A DNA stretch of 43,509 nt from a virus. The position numbers and the translations under genes are program-made. The stretch is from IMG/VR virus record IMGVR_UViG_3300020057_000061, positions 1 to 43,509 of that record; one strand, given 5' to 3'. This document shows, in pieces, positions 3,706 to 43,509 of the stretch. How positions within the stretch are numbered: the first letter of the stretch is position 1; each line of letters opens with the position of its first letter. A model generated the notes under the pieces. The model made no database searches. It saw only the letters and a list, made by a program, of their open reading frames with translations, and had not been told where the DNA came from.

Positions 3706-3715
3706 GTGAGGCTAA

Positions 3716-8452: not shown

Positions 8453-8458
8453 GGAATC

Positions 8459-8484: not shown

Positions 8485-8551
8485 CACTTTTCATAATCCG
8501 CTTTCTATATCCCGTCTCGCCCGTCTCGCCCGTCTCGCCTGTCTCCCCTGT

Positions 8552-13219: not shown

Positions 13220-13411
13220 CTACACCGCTAACTGGCACATCTGCGGCACGTCGATTTCTTCCCCGTCCTCAAATGTGATATACACGCGCCCCGACAGCGT
13301 GCTAAGTTTTGCACTGATCACGATCCGATCCCGCCCCGCCTCATGGATTACATACGGAAACTGACACCGCGTCGCCAGTTGCAGCGCGGTAATCCGGCTA
13401 TGCCTGTCCAT
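13220..13411 (-). CDS. Small protein of unknown function
   Basis: 63 residues with a compact pattern of alternating strands ('FPYVIHEAGRDRIVISAKL', 'GRVYITFEDGEEIDV') suggesting a small beta-barrel. No recognised family. ATG 13411 is preceded by GGAGGT five bases upstream, an almost ideal ribosome site, and overlaps the end of the terminase small subunit by 14 bases, so it is very likely translated. It lies between terminase small subunit and the ParB-methyltransferase, which could point to packaging or DNA modification; that is only context. Confidence 0.65.
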   Translation of the reverse strand: MDRHSRITALQLATRCQFPYVIHEAGRDRIVISAKLSTLSGRVYITFEDGEEIDVPQMCQLAV

Positions 13412-13862
13412 TGGAGACCTCCGCCTGCCGCCGGATCATCTCCACAAATTGATTGACCGCCTCAGTCGGTTCGACACCCATCCCCCGCATAATCGCAATC
13501 ACATCGTCCGGCAACCCCAGCGGCACACCGTCCGCTCCGGTGATCTCCGTCCGCTTAGACCAGCCCCGCGCCTTACCTTGAGTCTCAAGCACGAACAGCA
13601 CCGCCCGCATATCACCGTTATTGACAGCCCCCATCAGCTTGGTTTCCGCAAGGTCGATAATGCTCTCGCGTTCCTCCTCGACCAGCGCCATCAGTTCAGG
13701 GTATCGCTTGAGGTAATTATCGAGCGTTTGCCGCGTACATCCCAGCCGCCCCGTGATCGCCGTTTTAACCCCGCGACTCCCGCTGATCGCCTGTTTCAGC
13801 ATTGTCCGGCTGTATCGTTTTGTCCCTGCCACGCCGCCAACTCCCAAAAGATGTCTAGTCAT
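13398..13862 (-). CDS. terS: Terminase small subunit (HTH DNA-binding)
   Basis: About 154 residues. 'AISGSRGVKTAITGRLGCTRQTLDNYLKRYPEL' (residues 25-57) is a helix-turn-helix, followed by a long helix 'ALVEEERESIIDLAETKLMGAVNNGDMRAVLFVLETQGKARGW', the typical oligomerisation region of small terminases ('E.kL..ai..gd..a..f.Lk..gk.rGw'). It recognises the packaging site and recruits the large subunit. ATG 13862 has a weak ribosome site; GTG at 13832 has GGGAG eight bases upstream and may be the real start (144 residues). It is the first gene after terminator B and probably begins the late operon. Confidence 0.8.
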   Translation of the reverse strand: MTRHLLGVGGVAGTKRYSRTMLKQAISGSRGVKTAITGRLGCTRQTLDNYLKRYPELMALVEEERESIIDLAETKLMGAVNNGDMRAVLFVLETQGKARGWSKRTEITGADGVPLGLPDDVIAIMRGMGVEPTEAVNQFVEMIRRQAEVSNGQA

Positions 13863-13916: not shown

Positions 13917-13950
13917 TTCACCCTACCCGCGATCCCCTTGCCTAACGCGC
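13917..13950 (-). promoter_or_regulatory. Conserved post-terminator motif, copy B
   Basis: Minus strand: TGCGCGTTAGGC, about eleven bases, then GCGGGTAGGGTGAAGG, directly after terminator B and about 50-90 bases before the terminase small subunit start. It matches copies A (8417) and C (42737). Position at the head of the late operon makes it the best of the three candidates for a late promoter; there is no sigma-70 consensus. Confidence 0.45.
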
Positions 13951-13957
13951 AGGAATC

Positions 13958-13981
13958 AAAAACGCGCCACTCTGGGCGCGT
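13958..13981 (-). terminator. Intrinsic terminator B (end of early operon)
   Basis: Hairpin ACGCGCC / GGCGCGT (13962-13981), followed on the minus strand by TTTTT and GATTCC. It lies downstream of the last early gene (14069) and upstream of the terminase genes, separating the early from the late transcription unit. Confidence 0.8.
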
Positions 13982-14004
13982 CTTTTCGCTCTTTCTATGC
14001 TTGT

Positions 14005-14071
14005 CTCCCCTCTCCTTTTTCGGAGAGGGGTCGGGGGTGAGGCGTCTTTTCACCGTCCGGCGCTGAGGCTA
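14005..14071 (+). repeat. Palindromic repeat, left flank of the 14069 gene
   Basis: Hairpin with short loop (CCTTTTTCGG) and standard tail, then TTTTCACCGTCCGGCGCTGAGGCTA. The closing GAGGCTA supplies the TAG stop of the 14069 gene. The same roughly 70 bases recur at 14521-14589 with one internal mismatch. Confidence 0.9.
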
Positions 14072-14520: not shown

Positions 14521-14589
14521 CTCCCCTCTCCTTTTTCGGAGAGGGGTCGGGGGTGAGGCGTCTTTTCACCGTCCGACGCTGAGGCTAAT
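14521..14589 (+). repeat. Palindromic repeat, right flank of the 14069 gene
   Basis: Near-identical to 14005-14071 (GTCCGACGC instead of GTCCGGCGC). Short loop CCTTTTTCGG, standard tail and the extra TTTTCACCGTCC segment. The two copies are in direct orientation around one gene. Confidence 0.9.
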
Positions 14590-19396: not shown

Positions 19397-20458
19397 CTAA
19401 AACGGGCTGTAGTCGTCTTGCTCTTGCACCAGCCGGATAGTCAAATCCGCGCTCACCGTCGTTTCCACGCCCGCCATTCCCAGCGCCGCACGCACGTAGT
19501 TCAGTTGTGGATACAGCGCCAATGCCAGCGCCTCGGTTACGGTGAGATAAATCACGATTTGTCCGCTGACCATTTCGCTGTACGAATGGCGCACCACCTC
19601 GGCTAACTCAAATCCGTCCGCCAGCACAACCCGCACCAGCGCGCCCGGCTCTTCTCCCCTCTCCTGCGGTTGGGAGAGGGGTTGGGGGTGAGGCGTGTTG
19701 ATCGGCGTATCAAATTCAGGTCGTCGCAAATACGCCCCCCCGATCGGCGTGATGCACAATTTCCCATCCTCCTCAACGAGCAGCCCATAATCTTCCAGCC
19801 ACTTAACCAAACTGCGCGGATAATTCAGGGTGCTGCGTGTCACCCCCCCCTCAGCAGCCGCCAATTCCCGCAAAAGTTCAATCGCCTTGCCTAAACTTCC
19901 CGTAGCCATGTTTCCCCCGCTTATCCGAGGGAACGGCGTCTCTTGGACTTGAGGCGCATCACCCATACCCATATCCGGCACAGGCGTGTCAAATTCAGGC
20001 AGCCCCCGCAGGTACTCAGCCCCCGCAATCGTCAGCGTAATCAGCCCGCTCACGTTGATGATCATCGGCGGTTGCTTCCGTTCCAGCGACGCGACCAAAT
20101 TCGCCGCATAGCCCAAACGCTTCCGGGCAATCCCCACCTTGCCCGCCGCCGCCAATTCTCGCAAAAGTTCAATCGCCTTGTCTGAAATTCTCGTAGCCAT
20201 GTTCCCCCCGCTTATCCAGTCGATAATTTCATGGATGTTTGACGCCTCCAACACCACGTGACCGCCTTGTCGCACCACAATTCGCCCCGACACTCCATAC
20301 CTAGACGGGACACGCTCGACTATATAATCACTCCCGGCAATCGTGATTCTCACCGTCTGCCCGACCCACAGTTCAGTCACCCGCCGTTTTGCCAGCTTCA
20401 CCGGGTCACTCATCCACGACGGGTACACCCCCCCCGGTTGACGTTCCCACGCCCCCAT
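19397..20458 (-). CDS. Protein with duplicated winged-helix-like domain and an in-frame repeat insertion
   Basis: 353 residues. The N-terminal part (about 1-85) has a small beta domain ('VGQTVRITIAGSDYIVERV'). Two related modules follow, each starting 'SGGNMAT' then 'KAIELLRELAAA' and ending 'P EFDTP': about residues 83-160 and 180-256. Each looks like a winged helix. Then 'TPHPQPLSQPQERGEE' is translated palindromic repeat (19654-19695), after which the C-terminal domain continues in frame. Both internal Met codons (ATG 20200 and 19909) retain GGGGGAA in front, so shorter products may be made. ATG 20458 has AGGGGGG just upstream. Function unknown, probably DNA-binding. Confidence 0.65.
   Translation of the reverse strand: MGAWERQPGGVYPSWMSDPVKLAKRRVTELWVGQTVRITIAGSDYIVERVPSRYGVSGRIVVRQGGHVVLEASNIHEIIDWISGGNMATRISDKAIELLRELAAAGKVGIARKRLGYAANLVASLERKQPPMIINVSGLITLTIAGAEYLRGLPEFDTPVPDMGMGDAPQVQETPFPRISGGNMATGSLGKAIELLRELAAAEGGVTRSTLNYPRSLVKWLEDYGLLVEEDGKLCITPIGGAYLRRPEFDTPINTPHPQPLSQPQERGEEPGALVRVVLADGFELAEVVRHSYSEMVSGQIVIYLTVTEALALALYPQLNYVRAALGMAGVETTVSADLTIRLVQEQDDYSPF
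19654..19695 (+). repeat. Palindromic repeat inserted in frame in the 19397 gene
   Basis: CTCCCCTCTCC with loop TGCGGTTG, GGAGAGGGG and tail TTGGGGGTGAGGCG. The loop and tail differ from the usual sequence, and the coding frame is preserved on the minus strand as a Pro/Gln-rich linker. Confidence 0.9.
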
Positions 20459-20467
20459 AATCCCCCC

Positions 20468-21922
20468 TCACCGTCGCCGTTCATTCTTCGCGCGGATTTC
20501 CCGCTCTTGTTCCCGCAAATGCTCAAAGTACGCCATAAGCACCGCGACGACTTCCCGCTCCAGTAGTTCTCCCAACCAACCACTGGCGGTATCGAGATAC
20601 GTCTCCCACCAGCCTTCTCGCGTCCCCGTCTGATCCTTTCTTAAATTCTCGCGGCTGTAGGTCATCAATTCGGTGATTCTCAGGCGCAGTTTAGGATTGG
20701 CGGACGCCAGTTGCTTCATAAATGCCAGCACCGCCCCCGCGTTGTGACCCTTTGCCGTCCACCCGGCGAGGATCGCCACCTGTGACTCTTGCGCCTCGTA
20801 ATCGGGGTAATCGGCTTCCTCAATCTCCTCTTCGGTGTCCTCAAACTCGTCGTCATACCTCGCCGGGAGGATCGGCGGCGGCTTCACATACACCCCGCCC
20901 GTTTGTCTCTCCTCTCCTGCTTCTGGGAGAGGGGTCGGGGGTGAGGCGATTCCCCCCCCCGATACCGTCACGTCCGCAACGCCATGCAATAAAGTCACAT
21001 CAGCATTATCAGCTTTCACGGCGACCAAATAATCGCGGATTTGCCATTCCGTCCAGTTCTGTTCATCCGCTTTCAGCCACAGCGTGTCGGGTATTGACAG
21101 CAGCGCCCGGTAATTGCGGACCGCGCTGTCAGATTTCACGCCGATCACGCTCTTGACACGTTCGGTCATCCCGCGCTTGATCGGGTACAAATTCCCATCC
21201 CGCACCTGTGCATAAAAGCGGCGGTCAATCTCACCCGGCAGCACCAGCGCATCAAACGTATTAAAATCCGCGCCCGCGTCCTGCTCATACATATCCATAA
21301 TCAGCAGTGCAATCTGCCGCGCCATGCTGACCGCATTCAGTCCCACCCGTGCGCCATTCTTCGTCGCTTGCGCCCACACATCGGGCTTAGGCTTGACCAC
21401 CGCGAGGATTTTGGCGTAATCGCTGCCCACCCACAGGTTCAGCATATGAAACGCCCACCAGCGCCGCTCCCCGTCGATCAGAACATCCCCCGCATATTCC
21501 ACCGGGTCACGTTGACCATCATGTTTGATCGTCACCGCTAGGCTGATCGTTTCCAGAAACTGCGCGACCACCGGGTCGGCTTTTTGCGCGTCAGTCAACT
21601 GAGGTTCCCACGCCCCGACGATTGCGTCCTCAATCGGAATTTTGACCCCCAGCCACGTCGATACCAGATTGAGCCAGCGCCCCAGCAGAATCGGCACATC
21701 CACAGGATCACCGTCCCAACTCCCGCGCACTGCTTGCGGTAGCAACCGTCGCGGCTGCCGCCGATCCGGGCGCATCGAGTAAATATCCGTCGGCTTGGCA
21801 ATCACCCGCCCGCTGTCCGGTATCCCCGGCAAAGCGCCATACATCGACTCATCGAAGTCTTGTAAATTGTTCCGTGACGGTTGCTCAAGTGGGTCGTCCT
21901 GCTCGAAGTTTCTACGCCGCAT
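20468..21922 (-). CDS. ParB-like partition protein
   Basis: 484 residues, directly downstream of ParA and overlapping its end by 11 bases. The N-terminal part has 'DPVEYAGDVLIDGERRWWAFHML' (about 143-165), the ParB 'I.GeRRw.A...' motif, and a helical DNA-binding-like middle ('ERVKSVIGVKSDSAVRNYRALLSIPDTLW'). Between about 310 and 350, 'GIASPPTPLPEAGEE' is a translated palindromic repeat, followed by an acidic linker and a helical C-terminus with 'LLEREVVAVLMAYFEHLREQERE'. ATG 21922 has AAGGTGG six bases upstream; the frame's TTG at 21940 lies inside parA. It presumably binds a centromere site that I could not locate. Confidence 0.75.
   Translation of the reverse strand: MRRRNFEQDDPLEQPSRNNLQDFDESMYGALPGIPDSGRVIAKPTDIYSMRPDRRQPRRLLPQAVRGSWDGDPVDVPILLGRWLNLVSTWLGVKIPIEDAIVGAWEPQLTDAQKADPVVAQFLETISLAVTIKHDGQRDPVEYAGDVLIDGERRWWAFHMLNLWVGSDYAKILAVVKPKPDVWAQATKNGARVGLNAVSMARQIALLIMDMYEQDAGADFNTFDALVLPGEIDRRFYAQVRDGNLYPIKRGMTERVKSVIGVKSDSAVRNYRALLSIPDTLWLKADEQNWTEWQIRDYLVAVKADNADVTLLHGVADVTVSGGGIASPPTPLPEAGEERQTGGVYVKPPPILPARYDDEFEDTEEEIEEADYPDYEAQESQVAILAGWTAKGHNAGAVLAFMKQLASANPKLRLRITELMTYSRENLRKDQTGTREGWWETYLDTASGWLGELLEREVVAVLMAYFEHLREQEREIRAKNERRR
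20907..20948 (+). repeat. Palindromic repeat inserted in frame in the ParB-like gene
   Basis: CTCTCCTCTCC (one mismatch in the left arm), loop TGCTTCTG, GGAGAGGGG and tail TCGGGGGTGAGGCG. Translation on the minus strand continues without stop or frameshift. Confidence 0.9.
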
Positions 21923-22712
21923 GGGACGCCACCTTCTCAACCATCAAGGCGACTTCTGTCGTCACCTCGTGATGCGCTTCATAGGCGAATAACGTCTTTT
22001 GCGCAAACCCTGCCTCACGCCAGATCGTCCGTTGTGCGAACGGCGTCCAGATGAGGTTGCTGTTGCCATACTTTTTTGTGAAATGTTCTTCCAACAAATC
22101 AATCCCGTGACAATGCGCCGCCGTCTGCATATTGACCATTGTCGGAATCACCCCCATCAGCACAGCCTCGCCGCTCAACCCGTGTTCTGGGCGTGCTTCA
22201 TTTTGCTCCTGCACGTGAAACGTGCTTTTCGCCAGCCCATCGAGGCTCAACGACTCACACAACGTCGGGAACAATACATAGTCCGTCGCGGCGAATACCA
22301 TCGCTTGCAACATCGACGCGGTAGGGGGCGTATCGATAACCACGTAATCGAGTACCCCGTCCAGTTCTACGAGCCGCTCCCGCAGCAATCGGGTGTTCCC
22401 TGTCATCAGCGGGATTCCCCGCGTTTCGATATTGCTTTGCAGCACCAGCAGCCGCCCCGACGTTGCCAACTTACCGCCCCACCGCGCAAACTCCGGTTCA
22501 CGCAGCACCGTTTTCCATTCCTCGTCCTGAATCAGCAGCCGATACAGCCCGCCATAATCTTTCATCTTCAACTGATGCGCCACATGCCCCTGCGGATCGC
22601 TGTCAATCAGCAGCACGCGCTTATTCATCAACGCCAGCCCCGCCGCGATATGCAGCGCCATCGTGGTCTTACCCACGCCGCCTTTTTCGTTCGTCAGTGT
22701 GATCACTTTCAT
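21912..22712 (-). CDS. parA: ParA-type partition ATPase
   Basis: 266 residues. Deviant Walker A 'KGGVGKTT' (about 10-17, signature lysine KGG), switch I 'DSDPQGH' (about 37-43) and 'VVIDTPP' (about 123-129) identify the ParA/MinD/Soj family. It lacks a long N-terminal HTH, so it is the short (type Ib-like) form. With the ParB-like gene it would segregate an extrachromosomal prophage. ATG 22712 has AAGGGTGA upstream; a GTG six bases earlier is less likely. Confidence 0.92.
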   Translation of the reverse strand: MKVITLTNEKGGVGKTTMALHIAAGLALMNKRVLLIDSDPQGHVAHQLKMKDYGGLYRLLIQDEEWKTVLREPEFARWGGKLATSGRLLVLQSNIETRGIPLMTGNTRLLRERLVELDGVLDYVVIDTPPTASMLQAMVFAATDYVLFPTLCESLSLDGLAKSTFHVQEQNEARPEHGLSGEAVLMGVIPTMVNMQTAAHCHGIDLLEEHFTKKYGNSNLIWTPFAQRTIWREAGFAQKTLFAYEAHHEVTTEVALMVEKVASHAA

Positions 22713-23879: not shown

Positions 23880-23956
23880 CTCCCCTCTCCTGCTTTTGGG
23901 AGAGGGGTCGGGGGTGAGGCTAATTTCACTACCCCCCGCTCGGTGAGGCGTCTTTA
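23880..23956 (+). repeat. Palindromic repeat between two early genes
   Basis: Full hairpin and tail (23880-23921), a diverged stretch, then CGGTGAGGCGTCTTTA, whose TTA is the complement of the TAA stop of the 23954 gene. Confidence 0.9.
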
Positions 23957-24673
23957 CCCCGCTGGCACGGCGTCCGGCAAGCGCATCACAAGTCCTGTCC
24001 ATTCCCGCCCGGCGCGATTTTGTTGCCGCTGCCACAACAGATTTCGACCCGCCACCTGTATCTCCCGGTTGCCAATCTCGATCAATTCCGCCCCGCTGTA
24101 CCACCCGCTTGCCAGCGCCTCAGCGAAGCTCACATCCTCAAGCGGCGTCCGACTGGCGTCCATACCGACGACCATGCCCGTAACCACCTGTTTGCTACCC
24201 GGCGGCGGGATCGGCGGACGCCCGTCGCTCATCAGTATCCCGTCCTCGCTCCCCTCTCCTGCTTTTGGGAGAGGGGTTGGGGGTGAGGCGTCTTCTGAGG
24301 TTGGGGCTGAGGCGGCTTCTGAGGTTGGGGGTGAGGCGTCTTCTGAGGTTGGGGGTGAGGCGTCTTCTGTTGCAGGGGTTGGGGCTGAGGCGTCTTCTGT
24401 TGCAGGGGTTGGGGCTGCGGCGGCTTCTGTTGCAGGGGCTGCGGCGTCGTCGTCTTCATCGACCAACCGCATCAGCTTGACGACCTCAAAATGCTCCACC
24501 CCGTCCGCCTCACCCAGTCGGATGCTCGTCGCGCTGATCTTCAAGACTTCCCATCCGTCGTTCATGGCGGCTGCCAGTTGTTCATCAGCCGCTTGCCCGA
24601 CCATCCCCGCGAACGTGCGTATCTCAATTCGCGGTTTTTGAATATCCTTAAAAGTTGCGTGTTGATCGTCCAT
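23954..24673 (-). CDS. First early gene: two-domain protein with repeat-derived linker
   Basis: 239 residues. The N-terminal domain (about 1-80) 'AADEQLAAAMNDGWEVLKISATSIRLG' then 'VEHFEVVKLMRLV' resembles small 'l...l..GWE......' domains (DUF4177-like) seen in phages. The linker (about 85-155) is translated palindromic repeat: repeated 'EDASPPTS' and 'ATEDASAPTP' units plus 'PLPKAGEG'. The C-terminal domain has 'TPLEDVSFAEALASGWYSGAELIEI'. ATG 24673 has AGGT six bases upstream. It heads the leftward early operon and is divergent from the integrase with a 55-base gap that must hold both promoters or parts of them; no consensus was seen. Confidence 0.65.
   Translation of the reverse strand: MDDQHATFKDIQKPRIEIRTFAGMVGQAADEQLAAAMNDGWEVLKISATSIRLGEADGVEHFEVVKLMRLVDEDDDAAAPATEAAAAPTPATEDASAPTPATEDASPPTSEDASPPTSEAASAPTSEDASPPTPLPKAGEGSEDGILMSDGRPPIPPPGSKQVVTGMVVGMDASRTPLEDVSFAEALASGWYSGAELIEIGNREIQVAGRNLLWQRQQNRAGREWTGLVMRLPDAVPAG
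24249..24446 (+). repeat. In-frame palindromic repeat with codon-phased tandem tails
   Basis: A full hairpin (24249-24276) is followed by tails of 24 bp (24297, 24321, 24345) and 30 bp (24369, 24399), then a partial one. All periods are multiples of three, whereas intergenic tails of this family repeat every 25-26 bp. The encoded linker keeps the frame. Confidence 0.92.
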
Positions 24674-24728
24674 CTGCGTTACCTCGTTCCTTTGCATCTA
24701 CATTGACTTCATTCAAGAGGGATGTTTT

Positions 24729-25631
24729 ATGAATCTACTGAAAGCCATCGACCTATTTCTCGGTGAACACAAACCAACCACCGCCAAGTCCTATCTTCAG
24801 CCGCTCAAATCTTTGCGAGACTGGGTAGGTCCCGCCCGCGAGTTGTCCGACATTTCGCCAGAACTGTTGATTGAATACTTCCAGATGCTCAGCAAACGGG
24901 GATACGCCCTCGCCACCGTGCAGAAGCACGTGATCACGGTGAAGACGTTCTTCAACTGGATAGTGAAAATTGATAAGTTGGAGAAAAGCCCCGCACGGGT
25001 CATCAAAGGGCGCAAGCTGCCCCGTGCCATATCCCGTGATAAAGCCATGTCCGATGCAGAACTCTCTGCCATCATCGACGCTGTGCGTTACAAACCGCGA
25101 GATTATGCGCTGGTGATTTTCCTCTCAGACAGCGGTTGCCGTCGGGGAGGGGCTGCGGGGTTGCGCCTTCAAGACATTAATTGGCGGGAGAGGACGGCGA
25201 AAGTGACCGAAAAAGGGGATAAGCCGCGCTTTATCGCATTCGGGGAACATTGTCAGGTCGCGCTAGTCAAGTGGCTCGCCTATCGCGGTTCGCTCAAAGG
25301 CTCACTCACGGGTGTCTATATTTTCTCGTTTGATGGCGCGTTGATGAAGCCGGAAAATATCAGTCTCATCATCCGTCGCGCCGCCGCGAAAGCGGGCGTC
25401 CGGGTTCTCAGTTCCCATTCCTTGCGCCACCGTAAAGGGCATCAGTACGCCGACGCTCGTATTGCCCCTTCCATCGCCGCCACCGCACTCGGTCATTCCG
25501 ACGTGCTAATCACCTTAAATAGCTATTATCCGGGTGACTGGGAATCAGCAAAGAAAACCTTGCACGAATTGGCAACCGATCCATCCACCCTTAAAGACTC
25601 CCCCGACAATATTGTCAAATTTGGGCGCTAA
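24729..25631 (+). CDS. int: Tyrosine recombinase (phage integrase)
   Basis: 300 residues. An N-terminal SAM-like core-binding domain (about 1-95) is followed by the catalytic domain: Arg I in 'SGCRRGG' (R138), Lys in 'TEKGDKPR' (K162 or K165), 'HSLRH' (H230, R233), 'LGHSD' (H256) and the nucleophile in 'LNSYYPGD' (Y266 or Y267). The tRNA-like attP candidate starts about 70 bases downstream, so this is probably the enzyme for site-specific integration. ATG 24729 has AGAGGG seven bases upstream. Expressed on the plus strand, divergent from the early operon. Confidence 0.93.
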   Translation: MNLLKAIDLFLGEHKPTTAKSYLQPLKSLRDWVGPARELSDISPELLIEYFQMLSKRGYALATVQKHVITVKTFFNWIVKIDKLEKSPARVIKGRKLPRAISRDKAMSDAELSAIIDAVRYKPRDYALVIFLSDSGCRRGGAAGLRLQDINWRERTAKVTEKGDKPRFIAFGEHCQVALVKWLAYRGSLKGSLTGVYIFSFDGALMKPENISLIIRRAAAKAGVRVLSSHSLRHRKGHQYADARIAPSIAATALGHSDVLITLNSYYPGDWESAKKTLHELATDPSTLKDSPDNIVKFGR

Positions 25632-26438: not shown

Positions 26439-26467
26439 AAAACCCCGATGGATTAAATCGGGGTTTT
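26439..26467 (+). terminator. Terminator/attenuator between promoter and second recombinase
   Basis: AAAACCCCGAT-ggattaa-ATCGGGGTTTT, an 11-bp perfect stem ending in TTTT. It would stop transcripts of about 45 nucleotides from the 26388 promoter, so either downstream genes are attenuated or a very short RNA is made. It is symmetric and could also stop leftward transcripts. Confidence 0.8.
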
Positions 26468-26519
26468 GTCCGGCGTCTACAGGGTTGGTAGAAAACCGAT
26501 TATGGAAAGCGAGGATAGA

Positions 26520-27629
26520 ATGCCTTCAGAACTAGCTCTACCCATCAGTGGGAGTATATCACAAGATTCATTCACCGATAGCGCGTGGTTGCGCTACTTC
26601 GACCCCCGCGCAGCGTTCGCCGCCGTCGCCGCCCACGTCGCTACCCTACCGTCGTCACGGACCGCTGAAAAGCATACATGGCGGGCATACGAGGATGGAC
26701 TGCGTTACTTCCTCGATTGGGCAAATGTCGCCCTACCCACCGAAGACCTGTTGAGCGGGTTCATTGCGCATTTGCTCACCACGCGCAATCTCAAGCCGAC
26801 CACCGTGTCCAGCAAGTATCTCGCGCCCGTCCGCTTGTTTCTCACGAAACTAGCCGGGCAGCGCATCACAAATTTCACAGGCAGCGAGCGCGATTATATT
26901 GCTGAATGCCGCGACCACATCCGGGCAGCCGGGGCGGTCAAGTCCCCCCGCCCCGACACGACCACCAACATAGCGCCACTCTGGAGTCCACAGTTTATCC
27001 GGCTCTCAATGCAGCAGGTCAACGCCACGCTCCGTGCGATCAACCGTCTACACCGCCCCGGATTGCGCGATTACGCCCTACTGCACGTCGCATTCAGCAC
27101 GGGGTTACGCCTCGCTGAGTTACAGCGCATCACGCTCAATTCAATAACTCCCTCCGGCACGGTCTACCTCATCACCGTGCGCGGCAAGCGTTCTAACGTA
27201 GACCCCGTGCCAATCAGCGCCCGCGCCTACGCCGATATTATGGCGTGGGTCGAAATGTACAATGCCGATCTCCCCGACGACGATCCCCGCCGCATCGTCG
27301 GGGATATTCCCATCTGGCAGCCGATGCTACACGGGGATAATTATGCTCACAATGGGGTGAACGGCTTCACCCCATTACGGGGGTTATCCCCGCAGGGTAT
27401 CCGTGACATCATCGAGCGCACGACCCGCGCCGCGCTGGGCGACTCATTAGCCCTTGCAGCGCACGATACCCGCCGCACAGCCGCCGCCATTGCCCACGAT
27501 GCGGGCATGTCCATTCCAGACATTCAGAAGCTGCTGCGCCACAAAGACGCTGCCGTGACTCTCCGCTATATCGGCACAAAACCAGACTATGATACATCCA
27601 CACTCGCCAATTATGTCCAGTTCGGTTAA
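26520..27629 (+). CDS. Second tyrosine recombinase
   Basis: 369 residues. An N-terminal core-binding domain ('RTAEKHTWRAYEDGLRYFLDWA') precedes the catalytic domain: R197 in 'STGLRLAEL', K223 in 'VRGKRSN', H315/R318 in 'HDTRR', H341 in 'LLRHKD' and nucleophile Y350 in 'TLRYIG'. All catalytic positions are present. The frame opens at TTG 26466, but ATG 26520 with GAGG five bases upstream is chosen. It is not closely similar to the integrase at 24729. Possible roles: resolution of multimers of a partitioned prophage, as with plasmid resolvases, excision, or a second integration route. Confidence 0.9.
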   Translation: MPSELALPISGSISQDSFTDSAWLRYFDPRAAFAAVAAHVATLPSSRTAEKHTWRAYEDGLRYFLDWANVALPTEDLLSGFIAHLLTTRNLKPTTVSSKYLAPVRLFLTKLAGQRITNFTGSERDYIAECRDHIRAAGAVKSPRPDTTTNIAPLWSPQFIRLSMQQVNATLRAINRLHRPGLRDYALLHVAFSTGLRLAELQRITLNSITPSGTVYLITVRGKRSNVDPVPISARAYADIMAWVEMYNADLPDDDPRRIVGDIPIWQPMLHGDNYAHNGVNGFTPLRGLSPQGIRDIIERTTRAALGDSLALAAHDTRRTAAAIAHDAGMSIPDIQKLLRHKDAAVTLRYIGTKPDYDTSTLANYVQFG

Positions 27630-28033: not shown

Positions 28034-28104
28034 CTCCCCTCTCCTGCTTCTGGGAGAGGGGTCGGGGGTGAGGCGTCTTTACCAATTCGTCTAAGGAGAA
28101 AACC
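28034..28104 (+). repeat. Palindromic repeat with attached ribosome-site segment (copy 1)
   Basis: Hairpin with loop TGCTTCTG and standard tail (28034-28080), then CCAATTCGTCTAAGGAGAAAA leading to the ATG at 28105. The same repeat plus ribosome-site segment occurs at 28376-28456 before the next gene. Confidence 0.85.
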
Positions 28105-28359
28105 ATGAAGCGTGAAAACTTTATAGATGCAAGCATCAACGGCAAGTTCGCCAACAAATACTACGAGGTGCTGGTCACCGACGGCGTTATAGTGTCGTCG
28201 ACGGAACATACGCCCGATCCGGAGGAGTCGAAGCGGAATATATCGTATGTCGGGAAACTCCTAAAGGACTATCAAAACGGGCGCTTCGGTGTTTATCAGG
28301 TCATGATGGATGGCGAAATATGCGGTCCCAATATGACAGTCTATCGCGTGATGTCTTAG
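28105..28359 (+). CDS. Small accessory protein of unknown function
   Basis: 84 residues, mixed alpha/beta ('YYEVLVTDGVIVSSTEHTPD' and 'YVGKLLKDYQNGRFGVYQVMMDGEI'). No recognised motif. The ribosome site AAGGAGA is strong and lies at the end of a repeat-linked segment shared with the next gene. Confidence 0.6.
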   Translation: MKRENFIDASINGKFANKYYEVLVTDGVIVSSTEHTPDPEESKRNISYVGKLLKDYQNGRFGVYQVMMDGEICGPNMTVYRVMS

Positions 28360-28375
28360 AACGCGCCCTCGCTTG

Positions 28376-28456
28376 TCACCCCTCTCCTGCTTCTGGGAGA
28401 GGGGTCGGGGGTGAGGCGTCTTTACACTATTCGCCAATTCGTCTAAGGAGAAAAGC
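28376..28456 (+). repeat. Palindromic repeat with attached ribosome-site segment (copy 2)
   Basis: Left arm has one change (CACCCCTCTCC). Loop TGCTTCTG, standard tail, then CACTATTCG followed by the same CCAATTCGTCTAAGGAGAAAA segment as copy 1. Confidence 0.85.
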
Positions 28457-28693
28457 ATGAGCGAAAACACAGAAGAAAAACAGGAATACACCTATCCCGA
28501 TGCCACGAGCGCGGGACTGCTGACATGGGAACAGGCAAGCAAAGAGGGGTTTTGTCCCATGTGTCGATACTTCGTTCTGGGCAGTGGTGATGATGACACG
28601 ATGGGGCAGCACGGCGTCTGTTTTGAATGCCTAGAAGAGTTGAAGTACGAGACGGGTGAATACGACGACGATTACGACGACCCCGATTACTAA
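28457..28693 (+). CDS. Small zinc-ribbon protein with acidic tail
   Basis: 78 residues. 'CPMC' (about 33-36) and 'CFEC' (about 55-58) form a CxxC...CxxC zinc knuckle. The C-terminus is very acidic ('EYDDDYDDPDY'), as in DNA-mimic or polymerase-binding phage proteins, though no specific target can be inferred. AAGGAGA ribosome site. Last gene before the terminator at 28910. Confidence 0.7.
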   Translation: MSENTEEKQEYTYPDATSAGLLTWEQASKEGFCPMCRYFVLGSGDDDTMGQHGVCFECLEELKYETGEYDDDYDDPDY

Positions 28694-28834
28694 TCAGCGG
28701 CGACACCACTAGCGGACGCCTCAAAATCATCGCCCGATCAGCGCATCATCTACCCGTAATTTTCGCCCGGTCATAGCATTAGATTGAGCATCGGGATCAT
28801 GTATGGATTCCTGAAAAATAATGCCCTCGCTTGT
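28694..28834. other. Gene-free stretch with a decayed copy of the 31142 gene end
   Basis: Within the 377-base gap 28694-29070, positions 28697-28719 (CGGCGACACCACTAGCGGACGC) match the 3' end of the holin-region gene (31160-31182, one mismatch). On the minus strand this would read 'RRPLVVSPL', like the 'KRPPVVSPP' end of that protein. The rest shows no gene. Confidence 0.45.
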
Positions 28835-28875
28835 CTCCCCTCTCCCAAAAGCAGGAGAGGGGTCGGGGGTGAGGC
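28835..28875 (+). repeat. Palindromic repeat with inverted loop
   Basis: Arms CTCCCCTCTCC and GGAGAGGGG and tail TCGGGGGTGAGGC are in the usual orientation, but the loop reads CAAAAGCA, the exact reverse complement of the usual TGCTTTTG. Confidence 0.93.
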
Positions 28876-28909
28876 GACACCCTACGTGGGCGCTAGAAAG
28901 TGCATTCCC

Positions 28910-28945
28910 TCAGCCCCCCCCTTTTTCTAGGGGGGGGCTGAATTT
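28910..28945 (+). terminator. Intrinsic terminator
   Basis: TCAGCCCCCCC-ctttttcta-GGGGGGGCTGA followed by ATTTT. It closes the transcription unit running from the 26388 promoter and insulates the promoter at 28953. Confidence 0.85.
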
Positions 28946-28952
28946 TGCCTAC

Positions 28953-28982
28953 TTGACACTCACAAGTTCTTAGGAGTATAAT
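28953..28982 (+). promoter_or_regulatory. Second strong rightward promoter
   Basis: TTGACA (28953-28958), 18-base spacer, TATAAT (28977-28982): both hexamers perfect, with the same spacer length as the 26388 promoter. It drives 29071, 29406 and probably 30553. The start region contains an ATTG tetranucleotide run (28990-29004). No operator like 26352 is visible, so it may be active in the lysogen. Confidence 0.85.
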
Positions 28983-29010
28983 GGTGTTATTGATTGATTG
29001 ATTGAGTGAA

Positions 29011-29070
29011 TAAGCGAGGCGTCCGCCAGACGCCAACAATTAGCCCCATTGGGGCAGAAGGAAACACACA
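29011..29070 (+). promoter_or_regulatory. Structured 5' leader, copy 1
   Basis: Two hairpins, GGCGTC-cgcca-GACGCC (29018-29034) and GCCCC-att-GGGGC (29043-29055), followed at once by AGAAGGAA (ribosome site) and the ATG at 29071. The same arrangement precedes the next gene (29342-29405). The pair suggests a shared translational control element. Confidence 0.7.
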
Positions 29071-29319
29071 ATGTTGGCACAAATCTTTTTTCATAATGGG
29101 TTGTATACCTCAGTGGTCGCAACCGCACCGACTGCGGTGTACAAGCACTATCCCTCATACGGTTGCAATCAAAGCAAACGTATGAAAGTAACCGATCTCG
29201 GTGCGGTCGAAATCAAGGGGACTACGGGGACACTTTACCTCGTGGAGACCACAAGCACCTACGATTTTGGGGCAGATAGCGTCTCGTCACGCTATGAGTT
29301 TTTGCTCGGCAGCGAATAA
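29071..29319 (+). CDS. Small accessory protein of unknown function
   Basis: 82 residues. 'MLAQIFFHNGLYTSVVATAPTAVYKHYPSYG' has hydrophobic patches but no clear membrane segment. 'GAVEIKGTTGTLYLVETTSTYDFGADSVSSRYEFLLGSE' suggests a beta domain. No family recognised. It is the first gene after a very strong promoter and carries the structured leader. Confidence 0.55.
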   Translation: MLAQIFFHNGLYTSVVATAPTAVYKHYPSYGCNQSKRMKVTDLGAVEIKGTTGTLYLVETTSTYDFGADSVSSRYEFLLGSE

Positions 29320-29341
29320 CTCCACGCCCTACCCTTGTGTT

Positions 29342-29405
29342 GTAATAAGCGCAGCGTCCGCCAGACGCCAAAATCAGCCCCAATGGGGCAGAAGGAACGA
29401 ATAAA
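29342..29405 (+). promoter_or_regulatory. Structured 5' leader, copy 2
   Basis: GCGTC-cgcca-GACGC and GCCCC-aat-GGGGC, then AGAAGGAA and ATG 29406. It agrees with copy 1 over about 50 bases. The changes mostly avoid breaking the stems: the second loop is ATT in one copy and AAT in the other. Confidence 0.7.
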
Positions 29406-30506
29406 ATGTTGGACATGAATTGGGTCGAAAAGCTTATCGAAATGTACGATGCCTGCCCGAAAGCGGCTGGCTGGCTGCGGGCGGGTGAGTTCGCATCGCC
29501 GCAGGAAGCGTGGGATGATTGTGGGCGCGGGGACTGGATGTTATGCCTGTTGGGGCAGACAGGCACATTAAACAACAATACGGCAGTCGAGATTTCTTGC
29601 CGTATTGTTCGGCAAGTCAGCGGCGGAAACGCCGTTTGGGGTTTACTGAGCAACCCCATCTTACGGGAAGCCGTCAATACGGCGGGGGCTTGGTTGGCAG
29701 GAAAAGCCAGCCTAGAGGCGGTACAAGCAGCAGCGGCAGCGGCAGCAGCAGTGGCAGCTGCACTGGAAGAGGAAGCAGCGGAAGCGGAAGAGGCGTCGGA
29801 ACTGGCAGCGGCGGACTTGGCGATGTTGGTAGAGAAAGCGTGGACGACGGATAAGCCCGCGTCTCCGTCAGAGGAGCAGTCGCGTGCGGAAGCGTGGAAG
29901 ACTGCTGATTCAGCGGAAACAGCAGCATCAGCGAATGCGATTACGCTGCGGGCAGCGGCATGGGCGGCAGGCTGCGCAGCCCGCACAGCGGAATCAGCGA
30001 CCCACGTTGCCTCTGTAATTTGGGTCGCAGGGTCAGCGGCAGAAGTGGGGGCGGCGGGAGCAGCCGCTCGGCAAGAGATTGCTGATATTGTCCGCCAGGA
30101 ATTTTCAGTGTGTCCGTTCTCCACTGGGGAAGAAATCATCCACTTCGCCGAACTGGACGCTGCGCGCCTACGCGGGAAAGAACTGGACGCCCGTGCGGGG
30201 GTAATCGCGGGATTGTTGGACAAAAGCAATTTGGCACAGGTGATGAAGATGTGGAAGCCAGCCCACGGAAAGACAATACCCGAACTCGCGGGGGATGTCA
30301 CGGTGCGCAATGAGTGGGAAATGCAAGCCCACTGGGAGCGCGTGTACTGGGCATTCGTAGACTCGATTGAGTCGAGCGAGTATATCCTTCTTTCAGTCGA
30401 AAACGCCCTATACGCGGTTCGGGAGTATGGGTCTCCCGATGAATACTCAGCGGTGTTGGACGAGTTAGAAAAACTCGCGCAGGTCGCTGAGAGCGCACGC
30501 GAATAA
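29406..30506 (+). CDS. Alanine-rich protein resembling phage 'putative immunity protein' family
   Basis: 366 residues. The N-terminus 'GWLRAGEFASPQEAWDDCGRGDWMLCLLG' (about 22-50) matches the opening 'CpeA..Wl.......eaW..c.rgdWlLwl' of a family often annotated as putative immunity protein in phages and actinobacteria. A long Ala-rich region follows (about 95-230, 'AAxAAxxAA' helices), then a helical C-terminal part ('LSVENALYAVREYGSPDEYSAVLDELEKLA'). The true function of the family is not known to me. ATG 29406 or 29415 may be used. Controlled by the second structured leader. Superinfection exclusion or defence would fit the constitutive-looking promoter, but that is inference. Confidence 0.55.
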   Translation: MLDMNWVEKLIEMYDACPKAAGWLRAGEFASPQEAWDDCGRGDWMLCLLGQTGTLNNNTAVEISCRIVRQVSGGNAVWGLLSNPILREAVNTAGAWLAGKASLEAVQAAAAAAAAVAAALEEEAAEAEEASELAAADLAMLVEKAWTTDKPASPSEEQSRAEAWKTADSAETAASANAITLRAAAWAAGCAARTAESATHVASVIWVAGSAAEVGAAGAAARQEIADIVRQEFSVCPFSTGEEIIHFAELDAARLRGKELDARAGVIAGLLDKSNLAQVMKMWKPAHGKTIPELAGDVTVRNEWEMQAHWERVYWAFVDSIESSEYILLSVENALYAVREYGSPDEYSAVLDELEKLAQVAESARE

Positions 30507-30516
30507 TTCCATCGCC

Positions 30517-30548
30517 CTGAGCATGGCGTTAAACTGCTCAGAAAGAGG
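30517..30548 (+). promoter_or_regulatory. Hairpin before the 30553 ribosome site
   Basis: CTGAGCA (30517-30523) and TGCTCAG (30535-30541), 7-bp stem with 11-base loop, directly followed by AAAGAGG. A third case in a row of a hairpin abutting a ribosome site, though its sequence is unrelated to the two leaders upstream. Confidence 0.55.
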
Positions 30549-30552
30549 CATC

Positions 30553-30978
30553 ATGGAAATTAAAGAGGCACGGGCGCTGTTCATCGCCCTCTCGGAAACA
30601 CTGCCCGAAGAGGAGGCGCTGCTTGAAGCAGCGCGTGCATGGATGGAGTCCAAGAACGTGATTTACCCCGCGAATGGACAGTGGAATTTGGCGCTCATGG
30701 CGCTCGGCGCGCTGGCGGACGGGCAGCCGGAAGTCGCCGCAAAAGCCTTCCGGCTCTGGCAAACATCGCGGGGGGCAAGCGGGCGCGTCCTGCTGCCTGA
30801 TGAAACAATCCGAGTCACCGACGCCGCCGAGCGTGCGGGGGTGACTCGGCGTTTTATCCAGGATGAAATCAATGCGGGAAAGTTGCCCGCAAAAAAAGAC
30901 GCGAAGGGGCGGTACGCCATCCGCGTAGGCGATTTTCAGGTGTGGATGACTAATCCACGCCGGGGCAGCCGTTCGTAA
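30553..30978 (+). CDS. Protein with C-terminal excisionase/MerR-like helix-turn-helix
   Basis: 141 residues from ATG 30553 (AAAGAGG five bases upstream; the open frame to 30523 has no ribosome site). The N-terminal half is helical ('LPEEEALLEAARAWMESKN', 'LALMALGALADGQPEVAAKAFRLW'). The C-terminal 50 residues ('IRVTDAAERAGVTRRFIQDEINAGKLPAKKDAKGRYAIRVGDFQVWM') match the HTH_17 / excisionase-type winged helix. It may be an excisionase or a transcription regulator. It is the last plus-strand gene before the convergent late operon end. Confidence 0.7.
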   Translation: MEIKEARALFIALSETLPEEEALLEAARAWMESKNVIYPANGQWNLALMALGALADGQPEVAAKAFRLWQTSRGASGRVLLPDETIRVTDAAERAGVTRRFIQDEINAGKLPAKKDAKGRYAIRVGDFQVWMTNPRRGSRS

Positions 30979-30987
30979 GCCGCTTGT

Positions 30988-31036
30988 CTCCCCTCTCCTG
31001 CTTCTGGGAGAGGGGTCGGGGGTGAGGCGTCTTTCC
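30988..31036 (+). repeat. Palindromic repeat after the 30553 gene
   Basis: Loop TGCTTCTG, standard arms and tail. Lies in the convergent intergenic region and is followed by the palindrome CTTACAATTTGTAAG (31045-31059). Confidence 0.9.
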
Positions 31037-31072
31037 GTCGACCTCTTACAATTTGTAAGCGGTTGACGGAAT

Positions 31073-31100: not shown

Positions 31101-31144
31101 CTCCCCTCTCCCAAGGGAGAGGGGTCGGGGGTGAGGCGTCTTTA
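31101..31144 (+). repeat. Palindromic repeat supplying the stop of the 31142 gene
   Basis: Short-loop version (CCCTCTCCCAAGGGAGAGGGG) with standard tail. The tail's GTCTTTA gives the TAA stop codon of the 31142 gene on the minus strand. Confidence 0.9.
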
Positions 31145-34148: not shown

Positions 34149-36875
34149 TTACTGCTCCAAGCCATACCCTTGCATATCATCCACCAGCGCATTCACGAAC
34201 GCCGCCAAATCCTCAGCGAACACCCTCAAATTTTCATACGCCACGCGCAGCGCATTGACATCTGCCACCTGTCCGTAGATCGTTCCAGCTTGCAGATTAT
34301 CAATCCCCGTATACGCGACGCTTTCGTTATCCGCCGTGTACGCCGATAACGTCCTATCCGCCGTGCTGTGCGTCTGGGTGAGCGCCGCCGCTCTTACCAC
34401 CGGAGTCGCGCCGAAAAATCCAATCGCCCCCGCGCTCCCGTTCGCCCGCATCCGCATGATTTCCCGCGTCGCCGCCGAGTCGATCAGGTTGAACACGAGG
34501 TCGGGCGCACGGCTGGCATGAGTCGCCACGTTCCACAACCAATCAATCGACCCCACCGCTGTGTTTTCCGTCGTGCTGCTTTCCAGTTGCAGCGCCAGTC
34601 CGCTGCCAAACCCCGCTAACGGCGTACCCGTGTCATTGCGTCCGATGATGGCGCTGCTGACGACGGATGAGAGCGATCCCGCTGTCGTGTTGAGGACGTG
34701 CAATCGTGCGGCGGGAGTCGTCGTTCCCAACCCGACGCTGCCCTTTAGAACCGTCTTGGTAATACTGTCATTCCCAAGCACCACGCTATGAGTCCCTACC
34801 CCGATGGCGTTGTACCCAATGACGATTTCATTGGCGTCTCCATTTGCGAGGGCTTTGGTATACATTCCAAGATAGAGAGAATGATTACTAGTGGCATTCG
34901 CGGTTGAGCCGTCAGCGATGAAGCTCCCTGCGTGAAATCCCTGTGCAGTATTGTTAATCCCAGTGGTGAGGAGGTTGAGGGCAGAATGTCCCTGTGCAGC
35001 GTTGCCGTACCCAGTGGTGTTGGATACGAGGGCGTAATTCCCCTGTGCAACGTTTTCGTACCCAGTGGTGTTGGCCGTGAGGACGGAATTCCCCTGTGCA
35101 ACGTTGTTAAACCCAGTGGTGTTGGACACGAGGGCGTAACTCCCCTGTGCAGTATTGTTGTTCCCTGTGGTGGTATTGTAGCCCGCAAAAGAACCAACGA
35201 AGGTGTTGTTATACCCAGTGGTGTTGGAGTAGCCCGCGCTTACGCCAATAAAGGTGCTGTTATACCCTGTGGTGCTGGAGAAGCCCGCACCGTTTCCAAT
35301 AAAAGCGTTATATAACCCCTCATTTCCAACGCCCGAAACATTGTTGACTCGTCCTGCGTCTTTGCCTAAGAACAGATTGTTTGTATTATCGCTATGGAGT
35401 CTGAGTAATTCTGTCCCGCCACTACTAAGGAGCTTGATGAGTGGATTGGAATTGCTCTGAGTAGCATTGGCTCGGACGATGAATTGAGTAGCATCAGTGC
35501 TTCCAGCTACTTCTAGTCTGGCGCTGGGAGCAATCGTCCCAATCCCCACATTCCCATTATTTAATATCGTTGTCGCAATCGTAGCACCATTGTTGCCAAC
35601 CAATGCTTGGATGGCGGCGGCGGTTAAAGTGCCGTTGCCTGCTGTGCCTTGAAGTTTGAGAATGTCAGTGATGGCAGTGCCGCCGATAACGGTTTGTCCG
35701 CTTGACCGTCCTGCCAGCAGCGCGTACTGCGCGTGATCATCGTCCGCTAGTCCGCTGAGTTTTGCGCCATGATCCAACGTCGGGATATCCGCCGCCACCA
35801 GCGCACGAAACGTCGGCACACCCGTTGAGCCGTTCGGCGCGGCAAATACCTTGTTTGTCGTCTGCGTTGCCCATGCGCCAGCCAGCGTCCCGCTCCCCGT
35901 CACCGGACTACCCGTCACGCTAAATTCTGCGGGAAGGGTCAACCCCACGCTCGTCACACTCCCCGCGCCGTCCGTCTGTTTCCACAATGCCGCCCCCGCC
36001 GCCGCATCCGTGCAGACGTACACCTTATCGTTCGTCGTATCAATCCACACCGACCCCACGCCGTACCCGCTGGCGCTATCATCGGCTACCGTCGGCGCAG
36101 TCGTCGCGCTGAAATTGGTCTTTTGGTTGGATTGACCAAAATTCCGCAGGTTGATTATTCGCAGCACATTGACCGTCGTATCACCATTCGCCAAATCAAC
36201 CGCGCCCCGCCAATCCACGTCGGGATTGGCGGCGATCACGCTGGCAATATCCGCTTGCAACAATCCTTGCGCCAGTGACCGATTCGCCGTCAATGCCTGT
36301 GCAATCGCGTTCGTTTTCGTGTTGATCCCCACCAGCGCCCAGCTATGTTGACTCGCCGTCGCTGTCGGCGTCAGCGTGATCAACGTTTCGCCGCCCCAAT
36401 ACCCGCCTCGGTGGTGACACGCCGTGACTCGTACCTGTAATCCGGTCAGCCGCGCCAATTGAGCCGAGAACACGGTCAGCCGCCCGCCCTCAAGCGACAT
36501 CTCCCCGATTAGCGTGTCGCTGCCCACTTGCGGCAGTCGGATGCTTGGCGGGTTCGCCGCCCCCGAAGCATTGTCTCCGTAAATGTAAACCGCGTCCGTC
36601 GCGCTGGGCGACTTGACGACCAGCACGCCGTTTTCGCGCACAATCCGCACCCCCAACGCGGGGTCTTGCATCGCCCCCATGTTGATCGCCTCACCGATAG
36701 ACGCCTCAATCCCATCCACCAGTCGGACAAAATTGAAGCCCGGATGATGCGAAACTGGGACAGTATGCCCGCCGCTCCCATCCGGCAATCCGATATAGCC
36801 GTGCATCTCCTCAGCCGCCCGCGCTTGTGAGAAGATGCTTTCTAGCGCCTGTCGCCCGCGCTCAATGTCACCCAC
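34149..36875 (-). CDS. Tail fibre with tandem adhesin-like repeats
   Basis: 908 residues. The N-terminal attachment region (about 1-220) precedes a shaft with 'VTSVGLTLPAEFSVTGSPVTGSGTL', a common fibre motif. From about 510 to 700, 17-residue repeats 'NTTGxxNxAQGxxALxx' and related 'TTGYNxTFxGxxAGY' units form a repetitive beta structure similar to trimeric adhesin heads. The C-terminus ends in a short helical bundle ('ALRVAYENLRVFAEDLAAFVNALVDDM'). The 51-bp tandem units at DNA level (about 34930-35330) could change copy number. It starts eight bases before the end of the tip gene. Probable receptor-binding protein. Confidence 0.85.
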   Translation of the reverse strand: MGDIERGRQALESIFSQARAAEEMHGYIGLPDGSGGHTVPVSHHPGFNFVRLVDGIEASIGEAINMGAMQDPALGVRIVRENGVLVVKSPSATDAVYIYGDNASGAANPPSIRLPQVGSDTLIGEMSLEGGRLTVFSAQLARLTGLQVRVTACHHRGGYWGGETLITLTPTATASQHSWALVGINTKTNAIAQALTANRSLAQGLLQADIASVIAANPDVDWRGAVDLANGDTTVNVLRIINLRNFGQSNQKTNFSATTAPTVADDSASGYGVGSVWIDTTNDKVYVCTDAAAGAALWKQTDGAGSVTSVGLTLPAEFSVTGSPVTGSGTLAGAWATQTTNKVFAAPNGSTGVPTFRALVAADIPTLDHGAKLSGLADDDHAQYALLAGRSSGQTVIGGTAITDILKLQGTAGNGTLTAAAIQALVGNNGATIATTILNNGNVGIGTIAPSARLEVAGSTDATQFIVRANATQSNSNPLIKLLSSGGTELLRLHSDNTNNLFLGKDAGRVNNVSGVGNEGLYNAFIGNGAGFSSTTGYNSTFIGVSAGYSNTTGYNNTFVGSFAGYNTTTGNNNTAQGSYALVSNTTGFNNVAQGNSVLTANTTGYENVAQGNYALVSNTTGYGNAAQGHSALNLLTTGINNTAQGFHAGSFIADGSTANATSNHSLYLGMYTKALANGDANEIVIGYNAIGVGTHSVVLGNDSITKTVLKGSVGLGTTTPAARLHVLNTTAGSLSSVVSSAIIGRNDTGTPLAGFGSGLALQLESSTTENTAVGSIDWLWNVATHASRAPDLVFNLIDSAATREIMRMRANGSAGAIGFFGATPVVRAAALTQTHSTADRTLSAYTADNESVAYTGIDNLQAGTIYGQVADVNALRVAYENLRVFAEDLAAFVNALVDDMQGYGLEQ

Positions 36876-42736: not shown

Positions 42737-42771
42737 CTCAGCCTACCGCGCCACCGTTCCATTAACGCGCC
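42737..42771 (-). promoter_or_regulatory. Conserved post-terminator motif, copy C (separated by a repeat insertion)
   Basis: Minus strand: GGCGCGTTAATG then GCGCGGTAGGCTGAGAGG. It matches copies A and B, but 44 bases of palindromic repeat separate it from terminator C. It lies just before the tape measure start. Confidence 0.5.
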
Positions 42772-42815
42772 TCTCCCCTCTCCTGCTTTTGGGAGAGGGG
42801 TCGGGGGTGAGGCTA
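42772..42815 (+). repeat. Palindromic repeat inserted into the terminator module
   Basis: TCTCCCCTCTCC, loop TGCTTTTG, GGAGAGGGG, tail ending GAGGCTA. The flanking CATTAACGCGCC and GAATCAAAAA are contiguous (with one extra G) at 8441-8463 and nearly so at 13942-13962. This is a filled site with two empty sites in the same genome. Confidence 0.92.
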
Positions 42816-42842
42816 GAATCAAAAAAGAGGCTTTCGCCTCTT
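42816..42842 (-). terminator. Intrinsic terminator C
   Basis: Minus strand hairpin AAGAGGC-gaaa-GCCTCTT (42825-42842) with a GAAA tetraloop, followed by TTTTTT and GATTC. It starts four bases after the stop codon of the frameshifted chaperone. It would reduce transcription of the tape measure relative to the chaperones. Confidence 0.85.
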
Positions 42843-42845
42843 CGC

Positions 42846-43339
42846 TCACTTCTGTTCGTCCGACCACATAATTTCCATGATGTCCTCAACGTCGCTGGCG
42901 GGCATCCTATCAATCTCGTCCGGTTTTACGCCCAACCATTTCGCGATTCGGATTCGGTTGATTCGCCACACCTCGTCCTCGTCAAAAATGATCTGTTTAG
43001 GAAACTTGCGGTGCATCCAAATCGAATGCCCTAGCCCGTTTTTTTTCCCGGCTGACTGGCATTGCCCTCCGCCATGATCTCTTCGTAGTGGTCTTGACTC
43101 AGCGTATCCAACCAGCCCGCGTCACCAATCTTGACGCCTTTTGGCAGCCACCCCTCCGGCACGCCGACCACGATCTGCGCCAGGAAACGATCTACTTCCT
43201 CGAAACAGTCCGTCGCCGCCTCAAGGTCAAAATCCCGTTGCGCCCGCTGCGCCTTGATCTGCAACAAAGACGCTTGTTTCGCTTGCTTGTGCGTGATGCG
43301 ACTGCGATCAATCACAATCCCGCTATTTTCGTCTGTCAT
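42846..43339 (-). CDS. Tail assembly chaperone, -1 frameshift product (GT-type)
   Basis: The shorter chaperone frame stops at 43031. At GGGAAAAAAAAC (43049-43038 on the minus strand) a -1 slip on A-AAA-AAA or G-GGA-AAA enters a second open frame of 64 codons ending with TGA at 42848-42846. The extension reads 'NGLGHSIWMHRKFPKQIIFD', then 'WRINRIRIAKWLGVKPDEI' and ends 'VEDIMEIMWSDEQK'. It has no start codon with a ribosome site of its own, and the +1 frame closes quickly. Total length about 164 residues. This is the conserved G/GT arrangement before siphophage tape measures. Confidence 0.88.
43031..43339 (-). CDS. Tail assembly chaperone (G-type, unshifted)
   Basis: 102 residues. Helical and charged: 'VIDRSRITHKQAKQASLLQIKAQRAQRDFDLEAATDCFEEVDRFLAQIVVGVPEGWLP'. 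The shape fits phage tail chaperones that coat the tape measure during assembly. ATG 43339 has GAGAGG seven bases upstream; ATG 43345 is too close. If the ends are joined it follows the major tail protein. The slippery site lies at its last codons ('PGKKTG'). Confidence 0.82.
   Translation of the reverse strand: MTDENSGIVIDRSRITHKQAKQASLLQIKAQRAQRDFDLEAATDCFEEVDRFLAQIVVGVPEGWLPKGVKIGDAGWLDTLSQDHYEEIMAEGNASQPGKKTG
43038..43049 (-). promoter_or_regulatory. Ribosomal frameshift slippery site
   Basis: GGGAAAAAAAAC on the minus strand. Codon reading in frame 0 is CCG-GGA-AAA-AAA-ACG-GGC-TAG, giving two overlapping in-frame -1 heptamers, G-GGA-AAA and A-AAA-AAA. The downstream GC-rich CGGGCTAGGGC could assist pausing. 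Confidence 0.85.
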
Positions 43340-43368: not shown

Positions 43369-43509
43369 TCCCCTCTCCTGCTTTTGGGAGAGGGGTCGGG
43401 GGTGAGGCTTCTTTGCGCCCGTCGGGGGTGAGGCTTCTTTGCGCCCGTCGGGGGTGAGGCTTCTTTGCGCCCGTCGGGGGTGAGGCGTCTTTCCCACGTC
43501 GGGGGTGAG
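43369..43509 (+). repeat. Right contig-end copy of the terminal repeat
   Basis: Identical to 1-141 apart from T at 43383 versus G at 15. Because it is made of the same repeat family, the overlap could be true circular closure or an assembly break inside an array. Gene order across the junction supports closure. Confidence 0.9.

Follow-up and report, generated by a model that had tools for sequence, protein, structure and literature searches.

Triplex-motif hairpin units on one strand of a temperate phage genome and their apparent gain and loss between relatives

The window (the whole stretch of 43,509 nt analysed here), a virus record in IMG/VR, belongs to a temperate tailed phage; among its genes are those for tape measure, portal, large terminase, methyltransferase and integrase. 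Like all the sequences compared, it is a metagenome assembly. Its bases 1–141 repeat 43369–43509 with one mismatch, and the end junction is crossed without a break in the relatives L013, L014, L016 and L024. The genome is therefore circular or circularly permuted.

Two further phages matter for the comparison. L019 is a distant relative, with 65–69% nucleotide identity. L010 is an 83-kb phage contig whose shared DNA with the window is confined to a tail-fibre segment and early-region cassettes. The tail-fibre segment (window 34401–35686, compared with L301) is shared with L010 at 79%, which suggests that the two phages may have a common host.

The window also carries an adjacent pair of tyrosine recombinase (integrase) genes at 24729–25631 and 26466–27629. 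A T8 run (A8 on the coding strand) at 43039–43046, between the pair of tail-chaperone frames that precede the tape-measure gene, is a likely programmed frameshift site; the same run is present in L019 near 3189.

Three late operons, those of the terS-like (small-terminase), scaffold-like and tape-measure genes, are headed by modules of the same minus-strand layout: an intrinsic terminator hairpin, a T-run, GATTC, GCGCGTTA, exactly 16 nt and GTAGGCTGA. At the tape-measure operon a hairpin unit of the triplex-motif (TM) type lies within the module:

8419–8451, minus strand: bipartite element before the scaffold-like gene 7947–8381, with no hairpin between element and terminator
8453–8492, minus strand: intrinsic terminator adjoining the 8419–8451 element (z −3.2)
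13918–13950, minus strand: bipartite element with one mismatch, uninterrupted, before the terS-like gene 13398–13862
13952–13985, minus strand: intrinsic terminator adjoining the 13918–13950 element (z −4.7)
42738–42770, minus strand: bipartite element GCGCGTTA-N16-GTAGGCTGA, putative late promoter of the tape-measure operon (orthologue at L019 2926–2958)
42772–42815, plus strand: TM hairpin unit between terminator and promoter; filled in L013, L014, L016 and L024, empty in L019
42816–42849, minus strand: intrinsic terminator AGAGGCGAAAGCCTCTTTTTTGATTC of the upstream gene (RNA fold −13.2 kcal/mol, z −2.4)

Among 2.9 million viral contigs, the bipartite element was found in this phage group, in L019 and in one stray record (L302), which we rejected as a probable chance match. 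We infer that it is probably a lineage-specific late promoter. Both the terminator and this putative promoter are intact around the 42772 unit.

The first-pass annotation had described a module uninterrupted at 8441–8463, slightly diverged at 13942–13962 and split by exactly one repeat unit at 42772–42815. All three observations were confirmed. CATTAACGCGCC is exact at 8441–8452 and 42760–42771; at the former site it is directly followed by GGAATCAAAAA (8453–8463), and at the latter 44 nt (TCTCCCC...GAGGCTA) separate it from GAATCAAAAA at 42816–42825. The third site (13942–13962) reads GCCTAACGCGCAGGAATCAAAAA. With up to 3 mismatches, AACGCGCNGGAATCAAAAA occurs only at 8445 and 13944 (expected 0.05; two occurrences were reached in no shuffle), and the bipartite element, with a spacer of exactly 16, stands on the minus strand at 8451, 13950 and 42770 (expected 0.1). 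Chance falls far short of explaining how alike the three sites are. GAATCAAAAA is itself the T-tract plus the next bases of the minus-strand terminator, and a further copy at 31069 has no promoter adjoining.

The insert at 42772 can be parsed either as 44 nt replacing one G or as 42 nt (TCTCCCC...GAGGCT) accompanied by a G-to-A substitution. A target duplication is absent either way, in agreement with the earlier proposal of little or none. The proposal that the 8441 and 13942 sites are empty versions proving mobility did not stand. Judged by their sequences, the three sites are paralogous control modules and not one locus in two states; insertion can therefore not be demonstrated from these two alone.

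About 25 copies of the ~40-base unit are present in the window. Its sequence identifies the unit as the G/C-rich intrastrand triplex motif (TM/BoxC type) already described in bacteria. A CCCCTCTCC/GGAGAGGGG hairpin is followed by a mirror-matching third strand, GGGGGTGAGG, which gives the pyrimidine/purine hairpin and mirror-symmetric third strand of the motif, in a comparison with Table 1 of PMC4666352. The third strand fits 9 of 9 reverse-Hoogsteen triplets in 25/25 copies, as against 0.2% of random 10-mers. The duplex hairpin folds at −10 kcal/mol, a value for the duplex only, the triplex being predicted from sequence.

The TM of E. coli (BoxC/PIT; Holder et al. 2015, PMC4666352) has the same architecture and nearly the same sequence, CCCTCTCCC-loop-GGGAGAGGG-NN-GGGGTGAGG, and like the phage units it prefers intergenic positions and is rearranged between close strains. 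The phage units differ from it in their number (25), their one-strand orientation, their tandem tails and the gene cassettes between them, whereas Holder et al. found no strand bias in E. coli and linked the motif to neither phages, plasmids nor transposons (PMC4666352). An Rfam search of the unit returned nothing, and the exact 41-nt unit is absent from 84,980 bacterial and archaeal genomes. A looser pattern matched mainly Bacteroidota and one Anaerolineae genome; many IMG/VR contigs have single copies of the motif.

The copies in the window, besides that at 42772, are as follows:

2–40, plus strand: TM unit with tail array, the same copy as 43370–43408 (terminal overlap); empty in L019
1819–1857, plus strand: TM unit with 5 tail repeats, common to L019 (5159)
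3675–3712, plus strand: variant TM-like unit with a CTCCCTCCCC stem
7709–7747, 7805–7839 and 7876–7914, plus strand: TM units
8554–8592, 8626–8664, 8698–8736 and 8769–8807, plus strand: TM units in a tandem cluster
13017–13055, 13086–13124 and 14007–14043, plus strand: TM units
14523–14559, plus strand: TM unit, 97% like the 14007 copy including the right flank
19656–19694, plus strand: TM unit inside the long ORF 19397–20458
20909–20947, plus strand: TM unit inside the long ORF 20468–21940
23882–23920, plus strand: TM unit
24251–24289, plus strand: TM unit inside ORF 23954–24697, with tail repeats of 24 and 30 nt
28036–28074, plus strand: TM unit, left joint of the cassette gene 28105–28359
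28379–28417, plus strand: TM unit, right joint; in L015 the cassette is absent and one unit is present
28837–28875, plus strand: TM unit with an inverted loop region; the terminator/promoter module after it is without a unit in L298
30990–31028, plus strand: TM unit
31103–31137, plus strand: TM unit; other sequence in its place in L015
34036–34074 and 34109–34143, plus strand: TM units

At 28837–28862 the reversed loop reads CCCAAAAGCA instead of TGCTTTTGGG, with the tail still on the plus strand. The tail periods at 24251–24460, within an ORF, are 24 and 30 nt (multiples of 3), and most other arrays have 25–27 nt.

All copies share a core of approximately CTCCCC...GAGGC. Unlinked copies often have at least 8 further left bases (GCTTG, GCCCTCGCTTG) and at least 6 right bases (GTCTTT) in common, and some carry longer flanks or whole gene cassettes along. 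The number of tail repeats (24–30 nt) and of tandem units differs between relatives. Shared flanks, variable tails and tandem units thus do not support a single fixed element, and the 44-bp boundary earlier read from the 42772 site is not general.

All 25 copies and all tails lie on the plus strand, a bias with a nominal p of 1e-4 over 14 independent clusters. This orientation is unaffected by the flip in gene direction, being kept at 28036–30990, where genes run on the plus strand. Among unrelated multi-copy viral records with at least 4 distinct copies, chosen by copy number and not by orientation, 5/7 are one-stranded; in motif-bearing bacterial genomes the strands are used at about 1:1, often in inverted pairs. 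In most other multi-copy contigs whose genes all lie on one strand, the G-rich strand is the antisense one. We rejected a link of orientation to transcription: L190 has the opposite arrangement, and the plus-strand gene block of the window keeps the same one. GC skew tracks gene direction and gives no replication direction.

Several classes of small repeat resemble the units in part. REP/REPIN elements with a RAYT are likewise small dispersed palindromes, clustered and at gene ends. The phage units differ in that they have no GTAG or GGAG tag; of the conserved GTAG/CGTC tetranucleotides at the foot of REP hairpins, they show no GTAG, and only some copies have GCGTC after the tail. A REPIN is a mobile pair of inverted REPs, and this phage, with every copy on one strand, has no inverted doublets. 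No RAYT was found either: a Y1 gene flanked by the repeat was seen at 0/13 Y1 loci of the motif-bearing bacteria examined, and not in the phage. The terminal inverted repeats and target duplication of a MITE are both absent at 42772. Cyanobacterial small dispersed repeats (SDR5 and others), described in chromosomes, are also very small and have filled and empty sites, but their sequence is different. Finally, the unit tail contains GGGGTGAG, which resembles the GGGGWSAS motif of TIRYT-associated inverted repeats (PMC3733652), but a TIRYT gene is next to none of the copies examined.

These comparisons bear on REP/REPIN-type transposition, in which a host HuH transposase (Y1, RAYT or TIRYT) would insert units singly into DNA that is single-stranded at the replication fork, so that insertion is precise, no target is duplicated and all units keep to one strand. 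The strict strand bias and the lack of a duplication at 42772 agree with such a process, the tail fits the TIRYT motif, and bacterial genomes contain inverted pairs with the tails pointing outward (G018), which resemble REPINs. However, the boundaries differ between copies, the GTAG tag is missing, and REPINs move as doublets (PMC3116915), whereas the phage units are solitary or direct. A Y1 transposase (Y1_Tnp) was found neither in the window nor in four related records; in motif-bearing bacteria the 13 Y1 loci all lie more than about 1.5 kb from any unit, and two Prevotella genomes with 17 and 47 motif copies have no Y1 gene. We therefore consider host-driven transposition doubtful.

The comparison with relatives is more direct. 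The first-pass annotation had suggested a search for relatives that lack the insertion at 42772, and L019 is one: its chaperone/tape-measure junction (2926–2990) keeps the terminator and the bipartite element with no hairpin. Chaperone and tape-measure protein searches gave only the near relatives and L019 for this site, other tape-measure matches being too remote. The 8441 site is empty in L011, L024 and L025 and the 13942 site in L017 and L023, that is, in all relatives covering them. A repeat ancestral at all three modules and lost at 8441 and 13942, which had been named as the refuting case, is thus disfavoured.

Other positions vary in the same way. The 43370 unit is absent at the L019 orthologue, and at 55–90 L019 has a unit separating two genes whose window counterparts abut at 39897. 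The terminator/promoter module that follows the 28837 unit in the window is preceded by a unit in L010 (two copies) and stands without one in L298. An internal L010 pair at GTTCGTAAGC was dropped as a clean empty site, as its 'empty' copy has a different palindromic joint. Judged by these alignments, single units are gained and lost. The idea of a mobile unit therefore holds as far as single gain and loss between L019 and the window are concerned; transposon-like movement is not supported. Nearly all solitary copies are common to close relatives (>90%), so the movement of units is slow.

The direction of change at 42772 comes from parsimony, with one outgroup covering the site (L019) and two paralogues. 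Gain on the branch leading to the window and its near relatives is the reading we favour. The reverse would be a unit present at the junction in the common ancestor and deleted in L019, with the other two modules never having had one. TM sites do delete readily in E. coli strains (PMC4666352), and the unit at about 1817–1819 is common to L019 and the window. Yet the empty L019 junction retains its terminator and promoter, spaced nearly as at 8441 and 13942, with no footprint, and we regard loss as rather unlikely.

The uniform strand, the many positions at gene ends and the G-rich tails amplified in tandem could also point to oriented phage signals (Chi-like, packaging, replication pausing or bidirectional terminators) selected onto one strand at operon ends. 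This seems improbable: three copies lie inside long ORFs, copy number and site vary between relatives, and the motif has neither promoter nor terminator activity in E. coli (PMC4666352).

Rearrangements between relatives fall at the units more often than expected. In L016 a pair of units enclosing 775 bp stands in place of the 42772 unit, and the enclosed DNA has two small ORFs, of which one is excisionase-like; L010 matches two stretches of this cassette at 99%. Between L015 and the window, 342 bp at 28036/28379 were lost or not gained exactly from unit to unit, with one unit remaining, and the gene 28105–28359 is found without units in L298 at 94% identity. Overall, 19/38 indels between relatives touch units or tails, which make up 4.3% of the genome (5.7 expected; 0/2000 trials as high), although tail and tandem copy changes dominate this figure and the anchor method widens gaps near repeats. 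The same figure, with the same caveat about anchors, matches the rearrangement of TM/BoxC sites between close strains. The excess is no more than modest (6/16) when indels shorter than 100 bp are set aside.

A second type of intergenic joint, GCGAGGCGTCCGCCAGACGCCAACAATTAGCCCCATTGGGGCAGAAGGA, is repeated between small early genes at 29009–29063 and 29344–29408 and is common to the window and L010; it also occurs in L298. L011 (8153 bp) is a looped contig that links window 8560–8835 to 1809–1948 through TM arrays, and is either a recombination product or an assembly artefact.

That short-read assemblers joined unrelated flanks at the repeat, as the L011 loop joined through tandem arrays might suggest, is very improbable for 42772, where the filled arrangement is identical in the window, L013, L014 and L024 from different samples, a single unit of ~40 identical bases is shorter than a read, and the L019 site has no repeat at all.

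On balance, we think it probable that the phage carries its own population of TM units, that one was inserted at 42772, and that units spread without a transposase, by recombination or template switching, and serve as joints. We prefer this putative mechanism. No dedicated transposase would take part; homologous recombination between copies would both spread units and turn them into joints, and template switching or slippage might occur at the structure formed in single-stranded phage DNA. A replication step that acts on one particular strand could account for the one-strand orientation, as could selection acting against inversions that join opposed copies. Three things look new: the strand uniformity, the concentration of indels at units and the TM-bounded cassette at 42772 in a relative.

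Triplex hairpins of this type are very common, and the main study of them described no copies in mobile elements (PMC4666352). A small phage genome with 25 one-strand copies, close relatives and real filled/empty pairs offers a tractable system. It opens the questions of how the units spread, whether their orientation is set by replication polarity and whether they favour the swapping of genes between phages. As a tentative idea, some temperate phages may carry triplex-forming units as oriented, transposase-free joints, copied strand-specifically during replication, which would let unrelated phages of the same host swap small early-gene cassettes.
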